A DNA stretch of 64,000 nucleotides from Cognaticolwellia mytili (lineage in GTDB: Bacteria > Pseudomonadota > Gammaproteobacteria > Enterobacterales > Alteromonadaceae). The notes under the pieces are model-generated. The model did no database searches and was not told the origin of the DNA. It saw only the letters and a list, made by a program, of their open reading frames with translations. The DNA is taken from NCBI RefSeq assembly GCF_002104475.1, contig NZ_NBOF01000007.1, forward strand, positions 62,001-126,000, in the 5' to 3' direction. The translations under genes and the position numbers were made by a program. Positions 16,635 through 35,688 of this stretch are shown here, piece after piece (position 1 is the first letter of the stretch; each line of letters starts with the position of its first letter).

Positions 16635-16871
16635 ATGAAACTTTTAGCTCGTAACCTTTCACGCTCAACAACTGAACAAGAACTCCGTACTTTATTTTCG
16701 GAGCACGGCACTGTTAAGGAATGTACTTTAGTTTTAGATCAAGAGACGGGAAAATCAAAGGGCTTTGCATTCGTTGAAATGCCGGATGAAAAAGAAGCAA
16801 AATTAGCGTTATCTAAACTACATGAAACAAAAGTTTCTAATAATAAAATTCGCGTAAAAATAGCACAGTAA
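16635..16871 (+). CDS. Small RRM-type RNA-binding protein
   Basis: The 78-residue protein is a single RNA recognition motif: RNP2 is LLARNL at the N-terminus and RNP1 is KGFAFVEM near residue 43. Proteins of this type are common in marine gammaproteobacteria and cyanobacteria and resemble cold-responsive RNA-binding proteins. No signal or extra domain is present. It is transcribed alone; a terminator follows at 16896-16931. Confidence 0.93.
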   Translation: MKLLARNLSRSTTEQELRTLFSEHGTVKECTLVLDQETGKSKGFAFVEMPDEKEAKLALSKLHETKVSNNKIRVKIAQ

Positions 16872-16931: not shown

Positions 16932-17295
16932 AATAAAATTGCGTCGTGAAATCTATTTTCACATTGATGTGCTTATTTACAATTTTCTCAGGGCATAACA
17001 ACTGTGGCTGCACATCATATTTTAGACTACTAATTACTGAATGAGATTGGCTTCTAATGATCACTTTTGCCCAATGTGATTCTAAATATTACCTATTGAG
17101 TATCAAGTATTATGATTGAAAAGTCGTATTTTCAAAAATGCCACCTTGATTGTATCTCTTTAAAAACGCTCAACCGTAAACGAGATTAATATCAACCGTT
17201 ATGCGCAGTCACACAACATTCTCATTATTTCTGATATTTCACATATAACCAAATAGTTGTATTGTTTATACAATAAATTATTTTAGAGCAAAGGC
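16932..17295. other. Non-coding gap, nothing recognised
   Basis: This 364-base stretch lies between the RRM terminator and the small-RNA promoter. It has no long reading frame, no clear repeat and no strong hairpin that I can see. The last 100 bases are AT-rich and may include upstream promoter elements for the RNA gene. Confidence 0.5.
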
Positions 17296-17325
17296 TTTAC
17301 TTTTATAGAGTTGTTGCTCTATACT
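17296..17325 (+). promoter_or_regulatory. Sigma-70 promoter of small RNA B with internal inverted repeat
   Basis: The -35 is TTTACT (17296-17301) and the -10 is TATACT (17320-17325), with an 18-base spacer. Within it TATAGAG and CTCTATA form a perfect inverted repeat separated by TTGTTG. The same arrangement, with TAGAGTTCTTACTCTA, is seen in the promoter of the second RNA (32519-32548 minus), so the repeat may be an operator. Confidence 0.65.
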
Positions 17326-17331
17326 AAATTT

Positions 17332-17422
17332 GTTCTCGTTAGAGCACCTTGTTGTATTAATTTTGTATTCTAGCTTCCCCAAGCTGACTATGCCGATGGC
17401 CACTTTTGCCATCGGTTTTTTT
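17332..17422 (+). ncRNA. Candidate small RNA B, paralogue of RNA A
   Basis: The inferred transcript is about 91 nt, from seven bases after the -10 to the end of a T7 tract. No open reading frame of note lies between promoter and terminator. It contains a possible 5' hairpin (CTC-GTTA-GAG), an AU-rich core CTTGTTGTATTAATTTTG, a hairpin AGCTT-CCCC-AAGCT with an all-C loop, and a terminator stem CCGATGGC/GCCATCGG. The same order of elements, with clear sequence identity, occurs at 32420-32512 minus. The AU-rich core is a plausible Hfq site and the C-rich loop a plausible Shine-Dalgarno binder; both roles are inferred. I do not recognise a named family. Confidence 0.7.
17393..17422 (+). terminator. 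Intrinsic terminator of small RNA B
   Basis: CCGATGGC and GCCATCGG form a perfect 8-bp stem with loop CACTTTT and a seven-T tail. The nearest upstream plus-strand gene (RRM) already has its own terminator 460 bases earlier. Confidence 0.92.
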
Positions 17423-17605
17423 ATGCCTTAAATATACTTTAGCTACTATGTATTCCCTAGCCGTATTCAAATATAGTGACATTTTCATATTCGAGAATTA
17501 TTCATTACTTTTCCGGTCTATTGTTAGGCAACAATGATTAACGCTAATATTTCTTTCATTGTCTGTACGGTCTGTTAAATGTCCAATGAGCACTAAGGGT
17601 AATTT

Positions 17606-18049
17606 ATGTCATCATATAAAAAATCAAGCCAAGCTATTGCTGCCTTAACGGCTGAACAATATCGCGTTACACAAGAAAGCGGCACTGAACGCCCTTGGAC
17701 TGGCGAATTATTAGAAAATACTGCTATTGGCATTTATGTTGATATTGTTTCAGGTGAACCTTTATTCGCTTCAGCTGATAAATTTGATTCTGGTTGTGGT
17801 TGGCCTAGCTTTAGTAAGCCTATTGAAACCATTAACATTAATGAGATCACCGATGAAACTCACGGCATGGTGCGCACTGAAGTTCGCTCTGTTCATGGTG
17901 ATAGTCACTTAGGCCATGTATTTACAGATGGCCCTGTTGCACAAGGCGGATTACGCTATTGTATTAATTCTGCTTCACTAAAGTTTATTGATCGCAATGA
18001 TATGATTGCTGCAGGTTACGCAGCCTATTTATCACAAGTGGAAGGATAA
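17606..18049 (+). CDS. msrB: Peptide-methionine (R)-S-oxide reductase
   Basis: The 147-residue cytosolic enzyme reduces methionine-R-sulfoxide in proteins. Conserved motifs are [14 protein letters not shown] and the catalytic GLRYCIN. The two CxxC zinc pairs of E. coli MsrB are missing: the first region reads [10 protein letters not shown] and the second [11 protein letters not shown]. It is therefore the zinc-free form. AAGGG lies seven bases before ATG. msrA follows after four bases, so the pair repairs both sulfoxide diastereomers from one transcript. Confidence 0.94.
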
Positions 18050-18561: not shown

Positions 18562-18594
18562 GAAGAGTAGTCGTTAATTTAGCGACTATTCTTC
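18562..18594. terminator. Convergent hairpin between msrA and engB
   Basis: GAAGAGTAGTCG pairs with CGACTATTCTTC (one mismatch) around a nine-base loop. It overlaps the last codons of engB on the other strand. There is no strong T run, so it is a possible bidirectional terminator. Confidence 0.45.
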
Positions 18595-19233
18595 AATAAT
18601 TACTTCTTCGTTTAATGGTTCAATGTTTTCATCATGAAACCAGTCACAAATAACTGCATTGGCTTGGTCTGAGCCTGTGCGTTTTAATGACGAGAATGCT
18701 TGTACTTTAATGTTGGCATTTAAGTCTGCTAGTTGCTTTTTAACAGCTAATACTTGCGCGCTTACTTTACCTTGAGAAAGTTTATCACTTTTAGTTAGTA
18801 GGGCTAAAATTGGTAAGTCACCTTCTGCAGCCCATTTGATAAGGTCCATATCAAGGTCTTTTAATGGATGTCTGATATCCATCAGTACCACTAAACCTTT
18901 CAAACATTCACGTTTTTCTAAGTATTCGCCTAAAGCTTTCTGCCATTTTTTCTTCATTTCCATTGGCACTTTAGCAAAACCGTAGCCGGGTAAATCGACT
19001 AAGCGTTTGTTTTCAGCAATTTCGAAAATATTAATAAGCTGTGTACGTCCAGGAGTTTTACTGGTACGTGCAAGGCCTCTTTGGTTAGTAAGCGTATTTA
19101 ATGCGCTCGACTTACCAGCGTTAGAACGACCGGCAAATGCCACTTCAATGCCGCTATCTGCTGGTAAACGACGAATATCGGGTGCGCTAATGGTAAAAGT
19201 CGCTTTGGTCAGATGAATGGCTGTAGATGACAA
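18586..19233 (-). CDS. engB: Ribosome biogenesis GTPase EngB (YihA/YsxC)
   Basis: The 215-residue GTPase has all G motifs: GRSNAGKSS (G1), TPGRTQ (G2), DLPGYGFAK (G3), TKSDK (G4) and FSSLKRTG (G5). It is needed for assembly of the large ribosomal subunit. The start is TTG at 19233; the N-terminus [11 protein letters not shown] and overall length match E. coli YihA, and no ATG gives a better fit. It is divergent from the four-haem cytochrome gene, as engB and cytochrome c4 genes often are. Confidence 0.95.
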
Positions 19234-32030: not shown

Positions 32031-32089
32031 GGAGCTCGTTTTGTGCGAGCCCAAATACTACTTGGTATACCATTAATTAGAGGTTCATC

Positions 32090-32281
32090 GTGGCAAAGAA
32101 AGCATACCCATTACGTATAAACGAAGAAATATTGGCAGCTATGCAACGTTGGTCTGACGATGAATTACGTAGTTTAAATGCCCAAATAGAATATGTCTTA
32201 CGAGACGCTTTGCGTAAATCAGGACGTAGTAAGCCCATGAAAATAGAAGCTATTATAGATCCAATCGATAAGGCAGAGTAA
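32090..32281 (+). CDS. Arc-family ribbon-helix-helix protein
   Basis: The 63-residue protein starts at GTG 32090 with AGAGG seven bases upstream. The N-terminal strand KKAYPLRIN and helices EEILAAMQRWSDDELRSLNAQIEYVLRDALRKS fit the Arc/MetJ fold, with RSLNAQIEY as the Arc-like turn. It is paired with the SPFH gene and may regulate it or itself. DNA target unknown. Confidence 0.88.
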   Translation: MAKKAYPLRINEEILAAMQRWSDDELRSLNAQIEYVLRDALRKSGRSKPMKIEAIIDPIDKAE

Positions 32282-32420
32282 AAGTAATCGTGACAAGATA
32301 CTTCATCAACTCTCAGGCCGAGCAGCATAATGTAATTTTATTACATCCTAGGTTTTTGAGGATGCTCTTATTTTTGTAACTCAGTAGTAACAGGCACTAA
32401 GAATTTACTTTTTCATAGAT
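32282..32420. other. Short non-coding stretch between the Arc gene and RNA A
   Basis: No gene is visible. A palindromic run TAATGTAATTTTATTACAT lies near 32327-32345 and may act as a weak terminator for the SPFH-Arc unit. Confidence 0.3.
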
Positions 32421-32512
32421 AAAAAAAAACCGAGAACTAGTGTTCTCGGCTTATAAGCTATGAGGAAAGCTAAAATATACAAATTATTACAACAAGCGTT
32501 CGTGTTAGGAAC
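32420..32512 (-). ncRNA. Candidate small RNA A, downstream of polA
   Basis: The inferred transcript is about 93 nt. On the minus strand it has a 5' hairpin GTTC-CTAACAC-GAAC, the AU-rich core CTTGTTGTAATAATTTGTAT, a small AGCT/AGCT stem around TTCCTC and a terminator CCGAGAAC/GTTCTCGG with nine T. Identity to RNA B (17332-17422) runs through promoter, core and middle hairpin, while the outer stems differ in sequence but not in place. It lies downstream of polA on the same strand, as Spot 42 does in enterics, but I see no convincing Spot 42 sequence beyond a short AUAUUUUAGC match. Confidence 0.72.
32421..32449 (-). terminator. Intrinsic terminator of small RNA A
   Basis: CCGAGAAC/GTTCTCGG, loop of four, then nine T on the minus strand. 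polA has its own terminator 260 bases upstream, so this one belongs to a separate transcript. Confidence 0.93.
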
Positions 32513-32518
32513 AAAACG

Positions 32519-32548
32519 ATTATAGAGTAAGAACTCTAAGTTTGTAAA
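32519..32548 (-). promoter_or_regulatory. Sigma-70 promoter of small RNA A with internal inverted repeat
   Basis: The -35 is TTTACA (32543-32548) and the -10 is a consensus TATAAT (32519-32524), with an 18-base spacer. TAGAG-TTCTTA-CTCTA spans the spacer, as in the RNA B promoter. Confidence 0.75.
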
Positions 32549-32704
32549 GGTAATTCTGTAGTTTTTTTACATCATATTTTTTTGTTATATTTTTCCAGCT
32601 TTCTGATAAAAGAAAATTCTGTATATGGAGTTATAGTGCGGTATTAATATTGAACTCAATTTATAGATAAGGAAACACTGAGTTTGAAGGCAATAATTTG
32701 TGAT

Positions 32705-32838: not shown

Positions 32839-35589
32839 TTAATGTGCTTGCTCCCAATTTTCACCTATACCAGCTTCTGCAATCAGTGGCACACTCATTT
32901 CAACCGCATTATTCATTATATCTACTAATTTAGCGGTAGTTTCTTCCACAATGTCTTGATGTATTTCAAAAACCAATTCATCGTGAACTTGCATAGTCAT
33001 TTTGATACGAGGATCATTTTGTTCCAGTATCCATGCATCAACCGACAACATTGCCTTTTTAATGATATCGGCAGCTGTGCCTTGCATTGGCGCGTTAATC
33101 GCGGCACGTTCTGCCGCCTTTTTGCGCATACCATTTTTAGATTTAATGTCAGGTAAATAAAGTCGGCGACCAAATAACGTTTCAACATAGCCAGTGTCGC
33201 TAGCTTGCTGGCGAGTATCTTCCATGTATTGCGAAACATTTGGATAACGCTCAAAATACTTATCCATGTACTCTTGTGCGGTATGACGCGAAACATTTAA
33301 CTGTTTAGCCAAGCCAAATGCTGACATGCCGTAAATCAAGCCAAAATTAACCGCTTTCGCACTACGACGTTGATCGCTAGTCACTTCATCTAATGGCACA
33401 GCAAATATTTCCGCTGCTGTAGCCTTATGAACATCTTTACCTTCAGAGAACGCTTTAACTAAGCCTGGGTCATCAGACAAGTGTGCCATTATTCTTAATT
33501 CAATTTGTGAATAATCTATCGCAACAATTTTATGATCTGTTGGTGCAATAAAGGCAAGACGAATTTTACGCCCTTCTTCACTTCTGATTGGAATATTTTG
33601 TAAGTTAGGATCGGTCGAAGATAAACGCCCTGTTGCTGTTACCGCTTGGTGATATGAGGTATGTACTCGATTCGTTTTAGGGTCAACCAGTAAAGGCAGT
33701 TTATCAGTATAAGTAGATTTTAATTTACTTAAGCCTCGATTTTCTAAAATCACTTTCGGTAACGGGTAATCAAGTGCTAACTCTTGCAACACTTCTTCTG
33801 CTGTCGAAGGCGCGCCTTTCGGGGTTTTCTTCAATACTGGAATTTTTAACTCTTCAAATAAAATAGTTTGTAGCTGTTTAGGAGAGCTAAGGTTAAAGCT
33901 TTTTCCGGCAATATTATGCGCTTCAATTTCTAGTTCAGATAAGCGAGTACCAATAGTATGACTTTGCTGATCTAACATATCGCAGTCAATCAAAACGCCA
34001 TATTGTTCCATGCGAGCCAAAACAGGTAGTAATGGCATTTCTATCTCGTTAAATACTGAAAGTTGACTACTGCTTTTGGCTAGTTTTGGCATTATTGCTT
34101 GATGCAACCTTAGCGTAATATCAGCGTCTTCAGCGGCATAATGCCCTGCCTTTTCAATTTCAATTTGATTAAAAGTTAGCTGTTTCGCGCCTTTGCCGGC
34201 AATATCTTCAAAATGCACAGTTTTATAACCAAGGTACTTATCTGCCAAAGCATCCATATTATGGCGAGTAGCAACACTGTTTAAACAGTACGACTCAATC
34301 ATGGTATCGAAAGTAATGCCTTTCATCGCAATATCATAATGAGATAAAACATTAGCGTCGTACTTTAAATTTTGTCCGACTTTATTTTGTGTTTCACTTT
34401 CTAGTAAAGGCTTAAGCTGGGCCAACACCCAGTCTCTGTCTAGTTGCTCTGGTGCGTCTTCATAATCATGTGCAACGGGTACATAAGCCGCTTTACCTAC
34501 TTCAACTGAAAATGATAAACCTACCAATTCAGCTTTTTGGTAATCTACACTGGTTGTTTCAGTATCAAAGGCGAACACCTCTGAATTAGTCAGCTTATCT
34601 AACCAGCCTTGAAAATCAGCTTTGTTGAGTACAATGTCGTACTCAACATCAATATTACTTTCAGCGACTTCATCATCGCTACTATCTTCAACTTCCGCGC
34701 TATCGCTTTTCTCAGCTTTATCGCCATTATTTAAGTCAGCGAGCAATCGTCTTAGTTCATATTTTTCATATAATGCTTTCAAAGTTTCTAAATCGGCGCC
34801 AACAGGCTTTATTTCTTCTACCGATTGCTCAAGATCAACATCAAGCTTAATCGTTGCCAATTCAAACGACAGCGGTAATTGCGTTAAAGCTGAACGCAGA
34901 TTCTCACCTACTTTACCTTTAATTTGATCAGCATTAGCCATCACTTCTTTTAACGTAGGGTAGGCGGTTAGCCATTTAACCGCAGTTTTAGGACCACATT
35001 TTTCTACCCCTGGAATATTATCAACCTTGTCACCCATTAAGGCTAAGTAATCAATAATTTGATCAGGACGAACGCCGAATTTTTCTACAACGCCCGCTTC
35101 ATCCATTTCGACATTAGTCATGGTATTAATCAAACGCACGTGTTGGTTAACCAACTGCGCCATATCTTTATCACCGGTTGAAATAACCGTTTCCATACCT
35201 AATGCGGTCGCTTGATTAGATAAAGTGCCAATCACATCATCGGCCTCTACACCGCCAATAACTAAAAGTGGCAAACCCATTGCAGTAATAATTTCATGTA
35301 GTGGCGCAATCTGACTACGCAAATCATCCGGCATTGGCGGACGGTTAGCTTTATATTCTGGGTACATATCATTGCGAAAGGTTTTTCCTTTAGCATCAAA
35401 AATCACCACAACATTACCATTGGGATAGTCTTTTTTTAGACTTTTTAGCATATTCAATACGCCAGTTATAGCGCCAGTAGGTTGCCCGTCAGATGTCGAC
35501 AAAGCTTGCAAATAAGGCACATGATATGCACGAAATAAGTAGGATGAACCATCGACTAAAATTAGCGGTGATTGGTCAGAAGTTGGCAT
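32839..35589 (-). CDS. polA: DNA polymerase I
   Basis: The 916-residue enzyme has three domains: a 5' nuclease (about 1-290), a 3'-5' exonuclease with the DTET site (FAFDTETTSVDYQ) and a family A polymerase. Polymerase motifs are DYSQIELRIMAHLS (A), RRSAKAVNFGLIYG (B) and QVHDELVFE (C). It fills gaps in repair and removes Okazaki primers. ATG 35589 (MPTSDQSPLILVDGSSYLFRAYH) aligns with E. coli PolA; upstream in-frame TTG 35640 and ATG 35631 would add an unusual leader. Downstream lies small RNA A. Confidence 0.96.
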   Translation of the reverse strand: MPTSDQSPLILVDGSSYLFRAYHVPYLQALSTSDGQPTGAITGVLNMLKSLKKDYPNGNVVVIFDAKGKTFRNDMYPEYKANRPPMPDDLRSQIAPLHEIITAMGLPLLVIGGVEADDVIGTLSNQATALGMETVISTGDKDMAQLVNQHVRLINTMTNVEMDEAGVVEKFGVRPDQIIDYLALMGDKVDNIPGVEKCGPKTAVKWLTAYPTLKEVMANADQIKGKVGENLRSALTQLPLSFELATIKLDVDLEQSVEEIKPVGADLETLKALYEKYELRRLLADLNNGDKAEKSDSAEVEDSSDDEVAESNIDVEYDIVLNKADFQGWLDKLTNSEVFAFDTETTSVDYQKAELVGLSFSVEVGKAAYVPVAHDYEDAPEQLDRDWVLAQLKPLLESETQNKVGQNLKYDANVLSHYDIAMKGITFDTMIESYCLNSVATRHNMDALADKYLGYKTVHFEDIAGKGAKQLTFNQIEIEKAGHYAAEDADITLRLHQAIMPKLAKSSSQLSVFNEIEMPLLPVLARMEQYGVLIDCDMLDQQSHTIGTRLSELEIEAHNIAGKSFNLSSPKQLQTILFEELKIPVLKKTPKGAPSTAEEVLQELALDYPLPKVILENRGLSKLKSTYTDKLPLLVDPKTNRVHTSYHQAVTATGRLSSTDPNLQNIPIRSEEGRKIRLAFIAPTDHKIVAIDYSQIELRIMAHLSDDPGLVKAFSEGKDVHKATAAEIFAVPLDEVTSDQRRSAKAVNFGLIYGMSAFGLAKQLNVSRHTAQEYMDKYFERYPNVSQYMEDTRQQASDTGYVETLFGRRLYLPDIKSKNGMRKKAAERAAINAPMQGTAADIIKKAMLSVDAWILEQNDPRIKMTMQVHDELVFEIHQDIVEETTAKLVDIMNNAVEMSVPLIAEAGIGENWEQAH

Positions 35590-35688
35590 GATAATTTTTT
35601 GACTAGAAGAAAGATTGGCTAAGCATGCCATAATCGGCAAATTCTCTCTAGCACTTCATTATATTTAGTCACATCAAATGACGAAAAT

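Follow-up and report, generated by a model that had tools for sequence, protein, structure and literature searches.

Spot 42, encoded by spf, is the textbook sRNA of carbon control; it is repressed by cAMP-CRP and base-pairs with mRNAs for the use of sugars. In Escherichia coli, the gene order is polA-spf-yihA, i.e., spf lies between polA and engB. The regulator HexR is described in Vibrio parahaemolyticus with the motif TGTAATTAAATTACA and, at pgi, the site TGAAAAAAAATTACA, and in Vibrio, HexR sites that precede a promoter are regarded as activating (available text of PMC11906056). RccR of Pseudomonas, a relative of HexR, is reported with TGTAGT/ACTACA at 15 bp (excerpts of PMC5489143), and this similarity of form suggests that the type of site belongs to the regulator family. 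Among sRNA siblings, the accessible part of PMC9973317 describes NgncR_162/NgncR_163 of Neisseria, in which the SL2 loop and the SL1–SL2 linker pair with targets at ribosome-binding sites.

The locus discussed here lies in a stretch of 64,000 nucleotides from Cognaticolwellia mytili (the window). An earlier note on this DNA had marked a promoter followed by an intrinsic terminator as one member, B, of a paralogous sRNA pair, the other member being A. The meaning of the place was lacking in that first reading: as judged from sequence comparison, A is in the spf (Spot 42) locus and has a spf-type promoter. The features around B are as follows.

17284 to 17300, plus strand: upstream palindrome of B (TAGAGCAAAGGCTTTAC), spanning the -35 region; pattern found in 25/31 engB/msrB-adjacent copies
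17296 to 17325, plus strand: promoter of B, TTTACT-18-TATACT, a 9/12 match, kept in homologues
17306 to 17321, plus strand: spacer palindrome TAGAG-N6-CTCTA of B, reaching into the -10 box; read from the sequence and present in most homologues
17332 to 17422, plus strand: sRNA B, the engB-side copy, about 91 nt, with putative ends set by promoter and terminator
17332 to 17345, plus strand: 5′ hairpin of B, from folding; helix 1 paired in 97.2% (38 sequences), without double changes
17348 to 17356, plus strand: linker CUUGUUGUA of B, the probable seed; UGUUGU columns invariant in 38 sequences
17372 to 17385, plus strand: middle hairpin of B, from folding; loop CCCC at 17377-17380, and CCCC in 31/31 engB/msrB-adjacent copies
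17392 to 17422, plus strand: intrinsic terminator of B; stem 17392-17416 with 9 pairs, 6 of them G-C, then a T run; changes on both sides in 8/9 pairs
17606 to 18049, plus strand: msrB (TIGR00357)
18586 to 19233, minus strand: engB/yihA GTPase (TIGR03598)

The corresponding features around A are all on the minus strand.

32331 to 32345, minus strand: second HexR-like site TGTAATAAAATTACA, 75 nt beyond the T run of A
32421 to 32512, minus strand: sRNA A, the polA-side copy, about 92 nt, with putative ends set by promoter and terminator; covariance-model match of 106 bits
32519 to 32548, minus strand: promoter of A, TTTACA-18-TATAAT, read from the sequence and conserved
32523 to 32538, minus strand: spacer palindrome TAGAG-N6-CTCTA in the promoter of A
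32557 to 32571, minus strand: HexR-like site TGTAAAAAAACTACA of A, starting at -59 and placed as in spf promoters; 11/15 against the spf consensus
32839 to 35640, minus strand: polA, DNA polymerase I (NF004397 and TIGR00593)

The likeness of B and A holds on alignment, as the earlier note had expected, over both promoter and RNA, and it extends through the 5′ hairpin, the U-rich linker, the middle hairpin, and the terminator. A covariance model (R1; 17 pairs, built from 38 homologues, A and B included) matches exactly two places in the window, which are A (106 bits) and B (77.9 bits, 17328-17424). Both RNAs fold better than their dinucleotide shuffles (z -4.30 for B and -3.47 for A, with 0/200 shuffles equally good in each case). 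Among the 38 homologues, 96.8% of the paired cells can pair, and both sides are changed in 51 cells vs 12.9 in shuffles. These double changes are confined to the terminator stem, where they affect 8/9 pairs, and are absent from the other two hairpins. The notion that the outer stems differ in sequence while keeping their place applies to the terminator stem but not to the 5′ stem (GUUC/GAAC), which has the same sequence in both copies; B begins with GTTC and so does A.

The orphan intrinsic terminator that first drew attention to B is indeed a 9-pair stem followed by a T run, and the statement that no gene lies within about 460 bases upstream agrees with the nearest upstream gene found, an RRM protein gene that ends at 16871, 460 nt ahead of the putative B start at 17332. 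The promoter is present and conserved, although "near-consensus" was a generous term for a 9/12 match. Promoter-like matches in the B region number 11 vs 6.6 expected (sd 2.6), which is little above chance; it is the conservation that makes the B promoter convincing.

In the genus, B is present in 17/17 genomes and A in 14/17, with no A found in G008, G012, and G013. Running the covariance model against related genomes, as the earlier note had proposed, extended the family well beyond the genus. With a threshold of E 0.01 or better, R1 occurs in 77/246 genomes and 19/52 genera of the GTDB family (one of these genomes, G193, matches only at E 0.006), and in 10/394 genomes of the order, all from genera already in the family list; the family and order searches both used the stricter Infernal filters. 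Counted from the match table, 60 of the 77 bearers have two copies, 16 have one, and one has three. Named records with the RNA core are mostly Colwellia, Cognaticolwellia, Thalassotalea, and Thalassomonas, together with less well placed MAGs. The copies lie only 0.2 to 2.4 kb apart on the same contig in six genomes (G017, G152, G175, G224, G242, and G267), an arrangement that fits an ancestral tandem pair.

The earlier note knew of no named RNA with this sequence, and Rfam likewise has no matching family. At gathering thresholds Rfam gives no match in the window, and at loose thresholds it gives only weak sub-threshold matches that are not the same for A and B. Two candidate identities were rejected: Qrr (RF00378; 24.3 bits for B against a cut-off of 50, no match for A) and SdsR_RyeB (RF00111; 23.3 bits for A against a cut-off of 38, no match for B). 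Among the papers listed for Spot 42 or for sRNAs in Colwellia, Colwelliaceae, and Alteromonadales, none concerns the A/B family by its title or abstract. Collectively, the comparisons support A and B as a paralogous sRNA pair without an Rfam name that arose by an old, clade-wide duplication. The pair also has features expected of trans-acting sRNAs, as far as the sequence tells: a predicted promoter and terminator of its own and a conserved RNA structure.

The position of the copies links the family to Spot 42. All 14 A copies in the genus (14/14) lie downstream of polA and on the polA strand, and the interval between polA and A is without any ORF of at least 80 aa. For the B copies of the genus, msrB comes next and engB is seen behind it in several loci; outside the genus, B-type copies face engB. 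In one genome (G023), the single copy found is located between polA and engB and is of the B type by promoter and seed. The Spot 42 model RF00021 scores at least 35 bits in 46/246 family genomes, and none of these 46 carries R1. Four R1 bearers (G117, G146, G156, and G183) also have RF00021 matches, at 27 to 31 bits, which are taken as chance. RF00021 matches neither A nor B at E values up to 10, and it has no match in their own genome.

For 13 more genera without an R1 or RF00021 match at E 0.01, the region flanking polA was inspected in one genome per genus. GTAGGGTA, with which Spot 42 begins, is present in eight of these 13 flanks, and 7 of the 8 have an upstream site of at least 12/15; thus, RF00021 under-reports Spot 42 in the family. 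In the other five (L248, L252, L253, L255, and L257), GTAGGGTA is absent after polA, so that further lineages may have lost spf or had it replaced. In a tree of PolA fragments, rooted only at the midpoint, a branch with 100/100 support separates the 28 bearers from 42 Spot 42 rows; the bearers are reached by a long branch (0.29).

The promoters provide a second link. A palindrome, TGTAATTTAATTACA, is common to A-type and spf promoters and is equally far from the start in both. Its best match starts at -58 or -59 in 38/41 spf promoters, and a site of at least 12/15 at about -58 is found in 40 of 50 spf promoters (two rows kept among the 50, L249 and L259, seem anchored on the wrong GTAGGGTA). 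These are counts on a 15-mer; in a weight matrix of the spf element, shifts of one base in phase blurred the signal. The copies of the new family were compared in 81 distinct promoters, found by a fixed motif rule in the fetched loci, which cover part of the copies of the family search, with "neighbour" meaning a gene within the fetched stretch. A site of at least 12/15 at -60 to -58 occurs in 24/32 polA-adjacent copies, vs 0.06 in dinucleotide shuffles, and is missing from the remaining 8/32. The 12/15 site at these positions was found in 0/31 engB/msrB-adjacent copies, in 1/17 copies whose neighbours were not seen, and not in the G023 copy. At least one A-type copy (L141) has a perfect spf-type site, yet stands kilobases from polA. 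In another locus (L190), TGAAAATAAATTACAAAAAGTGCTTT agrees with the E. coli spf promoter at all but one of 26 bases. An exact match to TGTAATNNNATTACA is found only once in the genome; thus, no regulon of exact TGTAATNNNATTACA sites is seen genome-wide. As a side observation, a second HexR-like site of at least 13/15 is found further upstream (counted from -250 to -64) in 13/50 spf loci, most of them near -108; these loci include L068, L113, L115-L117, L119, L120, and L125.

The palindrome TGTAATTTAATTACA agrees with the published HexR motif (available text of PMC11906056), and the E. coli spf element at -59 (L272:545-559) is TGAAAAAAAATTACA, letter for letter the V. parahaemolyticus pgi HexR site given in that text. 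The E. coli TGAAAAAAAATTACA at -59 stands downstream of the CRP site named in the accessible part of PMC3295665. The genome has a single HTH_6 protein, which is HexR (NF008451, 520.9 bits; cut-off 296), and its gene lies between zwf and a pyruvate kinase gene. Inexact HexR-like sites are found ahead of hexR; the best, TGTAACTAAACTACA, scores 13/15 and differs from the site of A at two of 15 bases. Moreover, TGTAANNAANNTACA occurs twice in the window, both times flanking A, with 0.12 expected and two reached in 3/100 shuffles. A site of at least 13/15 past the terminator is found in 19/32 polA-adjacent copies, vs 0.05 in simple shuffles, and in 0/31 engB/msrB-adjacent copies. The predicted 15-bp palindromes, the first of them imperfect, together with the presence of HexR in the genome suggest that A fits a HexR regulon. 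The two predicted sites of A are 226 bp apart and could also make a repressing loop. An 83-aa ORF (32077-32328), without a Pfam or NCBIfam match, starts just downstream of the HexR-like site at 32331-32345, and this site may serve the ORF instead of, or besides, A. With respect to Spot 42 itself, the predicted site makes control by HexR in E. coli a testable lead; the available text of PMC4423775 concerns hexR and a Neisseria sRNA, not the control of Spot 42.

In addition to their promoters, the two groups of copies differ in linker and loop. TTGTTGT together with CCTC characterizes the polA-adjacent class (27/32 copies), and CTGTTGT together with CCCC the engB/msrB-adjacent class (30/31). The sole exception in the latter class is the B of the window, which has an extra T before TGTTGT and the loop CCCC; four polA-adjacent copies of the genus combine TTGTTGT with CCCC. 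A palindrome of the TAGAG(T/C)AA..CTTTAC type is present in 25/31 engB/msrB-adjacent vs 0/32 polA-adjacent copies. TAGAG-N6-CTCTA, or a near form, covers the spacer and the -10 box in most copies of both classes. The pattern TTAGAG-N6-CTCTAWA, whose first base excludes B, occurs in the genome only at A, and with this single place the spacer palindrome could be tied to no regulator.

Candidate targets were sought with the pattern WTACAACARGN{0,30}ATG, which has 43, 27, 45, and 54 matches in four genomes; the backward pattern, an unfair control with respect to codon bias, has 23, 22, 27, and 22 in the same genomes. Of 20 places read among the matches listed, most are apparently inside coding sequence and no gene recurs, and the seed scan, as far as these places go, gave no convincing target. 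In G064, two sequences (L227, about 182-240, and L228, about 213-270) have a common leader like TTGTAGA(G/A)ATACAACAGGAGG before a tiny ORF. These leaders are complementary to the B-type linker and have a Shine-Dalgarno-like end.

How might the family have come to occupy the Spot 42 locus? That A and B merely resemble each other by chance in AT-rich DNA has next to nothing to recommend it: the match of the B promoter alone is unremarkable, but the conservation in 19/52 genera and the compensatory changes speak against chance, and the genus-wide and family-wide conservation had already ruled it out. A role of B in cis, as a leader or attenuator of msrB (same strand, start 184 nt downstream), is also very improbable. 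While msrB follows B on the same strand in 17 genus loci, the distance between them differs by many hundred bases among species, B-type copies in other genera face engB without msrB, A has no gene in that position, and B ends in a conserved terminator; the variable distance, the msrB-less loci, and the terminator led us to reject this role. A possible alternative to replacement of Spot 42, although an unlikely one, is that A and B are its descendants and have drifted beyond recognition. The same locus, the same promoter element, and the long branch to the bearers (0.29) would fit such drift, and in the best local matches a AUGUUCUAUCUUUC-like segment of Spot 42 is aligned with AUAUUCUAGCUUUC. 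However, these matches are insignificant, as eight single-sequence comparisons of the RNA body with Spot 42 gave p values from 0.165 to 0.817; the averaged score was 18.56 vs 16.32 in shuffles, which ignore relatedness. RF00021 lists neither copy even at E 10, and the other lineages read have retained GTAGGGTA at the 5′ end of Spot 42. Because this 5′ end is so well kept there, replacement is preferred over drift.

A separate question is whether the AT-rich element at -59 is a HexR site or plainly an UP element for the RNA polymerase alpha subunit. UP elements lie at about such a promoter position, and TGAAAAAAAATTACA, the form found in E. coli, is very rich in A. We nevertheless doubt this explanation, giving it a minor share of the probability, since the palindrome keeps its TG...CA ends in most rows and further copies stand where an UP element makes no sense, i.e., past the A terminator (19/32) and about 50 bp upstream in 13/50 spf loci. 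Moreover, the E. coli element is identical in sequence to the pgi HexR site published for V. parahaemolyticus (available text of PMC11906056).

What the comparison brings out is the family, its locus, the promoter element common to A and spf, the two paralogue classes, and the fact that the family and Spot 42 exclude each other. We consider it probable, from the sequence evidence, that the spf promoter was kept while a new sRNA took the place of the Spot 42 transcript and was then duplicated, with A controlled by HexR and B by another input. The wider reading, in which a sRNA of core metabolism was swapped, in a single ancestor, for an unrelated RNA under its own HexR-type promoter, the newcomer was duplicated with its second copy escaping to a new signal, and HexR is an overlooked regulator of Spot 42 in many gammaproteobacteria, E. 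coli included, is held more tentatively, at somewhat less than even chances. In the replacement model, the ancestor of Colwellia, Cognaticolwellia, Thalassotalea, and Thalassomonas would have swapped the spf-driven transcript for a new RNA body, which would then have duplicated in tandem between polA and engB. By a later rearrangement, A would have ended up beside polA and B beside engB (in this genome, msrB stands between B and engB). Both RNAs are presumably transcribed, and Hfq might hold them via the U-rich linker and the terminator tail. The UGUUGU linker and the C/U-rich apical loop may pair with the ribosome-binding regions of mRNAs; the loop, mostly CCUC in the A type and CCCC in the B type, could in both forms pair with purine-rich ribosome-binding sites. 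Linker and loop are the likely seeds, and the Neisseria siblings and VcdR, as described in the available texts, are precedents. A would be under HexR, and hence KDPG, through the predicted sites at -59 and past the terminator, while B, without HexR-like sites, would respond to another regulator via its own palindromes. Two signals would thus act on related sets of targets.

A clade that keeps the place and promoter of a textbook sRNA while the RNA is exchanged would be a natural experiment on whether input or transcript is the conserved unit, and the pair would be a case of sRNA duplicates splitting their inputs. The predicted HexR site in spf promoters, including that of E. coli, is directly testable.

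Among the known systems, VcdR of Vibrio cholerae, which pairs through four consecutive cytosines, resembles the pair in this presumed mode of pairing and in its carbon-metabolism context, but as a 306-nt dual-function RNA at another locus that is repressed by CRP, it is an analogy by description (accessible part of PMC8672173). NgncR_162/NgncR_163 are likewise two sibling sRNAs with three stem-loops, and have a metabolic role such as the pair may have, whereas their locus is another one and the copies are adjacent, i.e., the analogy is one of working, not of membership (excerpts of PMC9973317). VSsrna24 of Vibrionaceae is also a second sRNA in the polA-engB interval; by the description in the available text of PMC3295665, it is set apart by its length of about 60 nt, its occurrence together with Spot 42, and its reported limitation to Vibrionaceae. 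The closest system is Spot 42 (spf, RF00021), with which the pair has in common the place downstream of polA toward engB, the size class, and the intrinsic terminator. The spf upstream element at -58/-59 is found in the A type (24/32) and not in the B type (0/31). In contrast to Spot 42, the pair has no match to the covariance model and no 5′ end GTAGGGTACAGAGG, and the new family usually has two copies, of which B is under another promoter.
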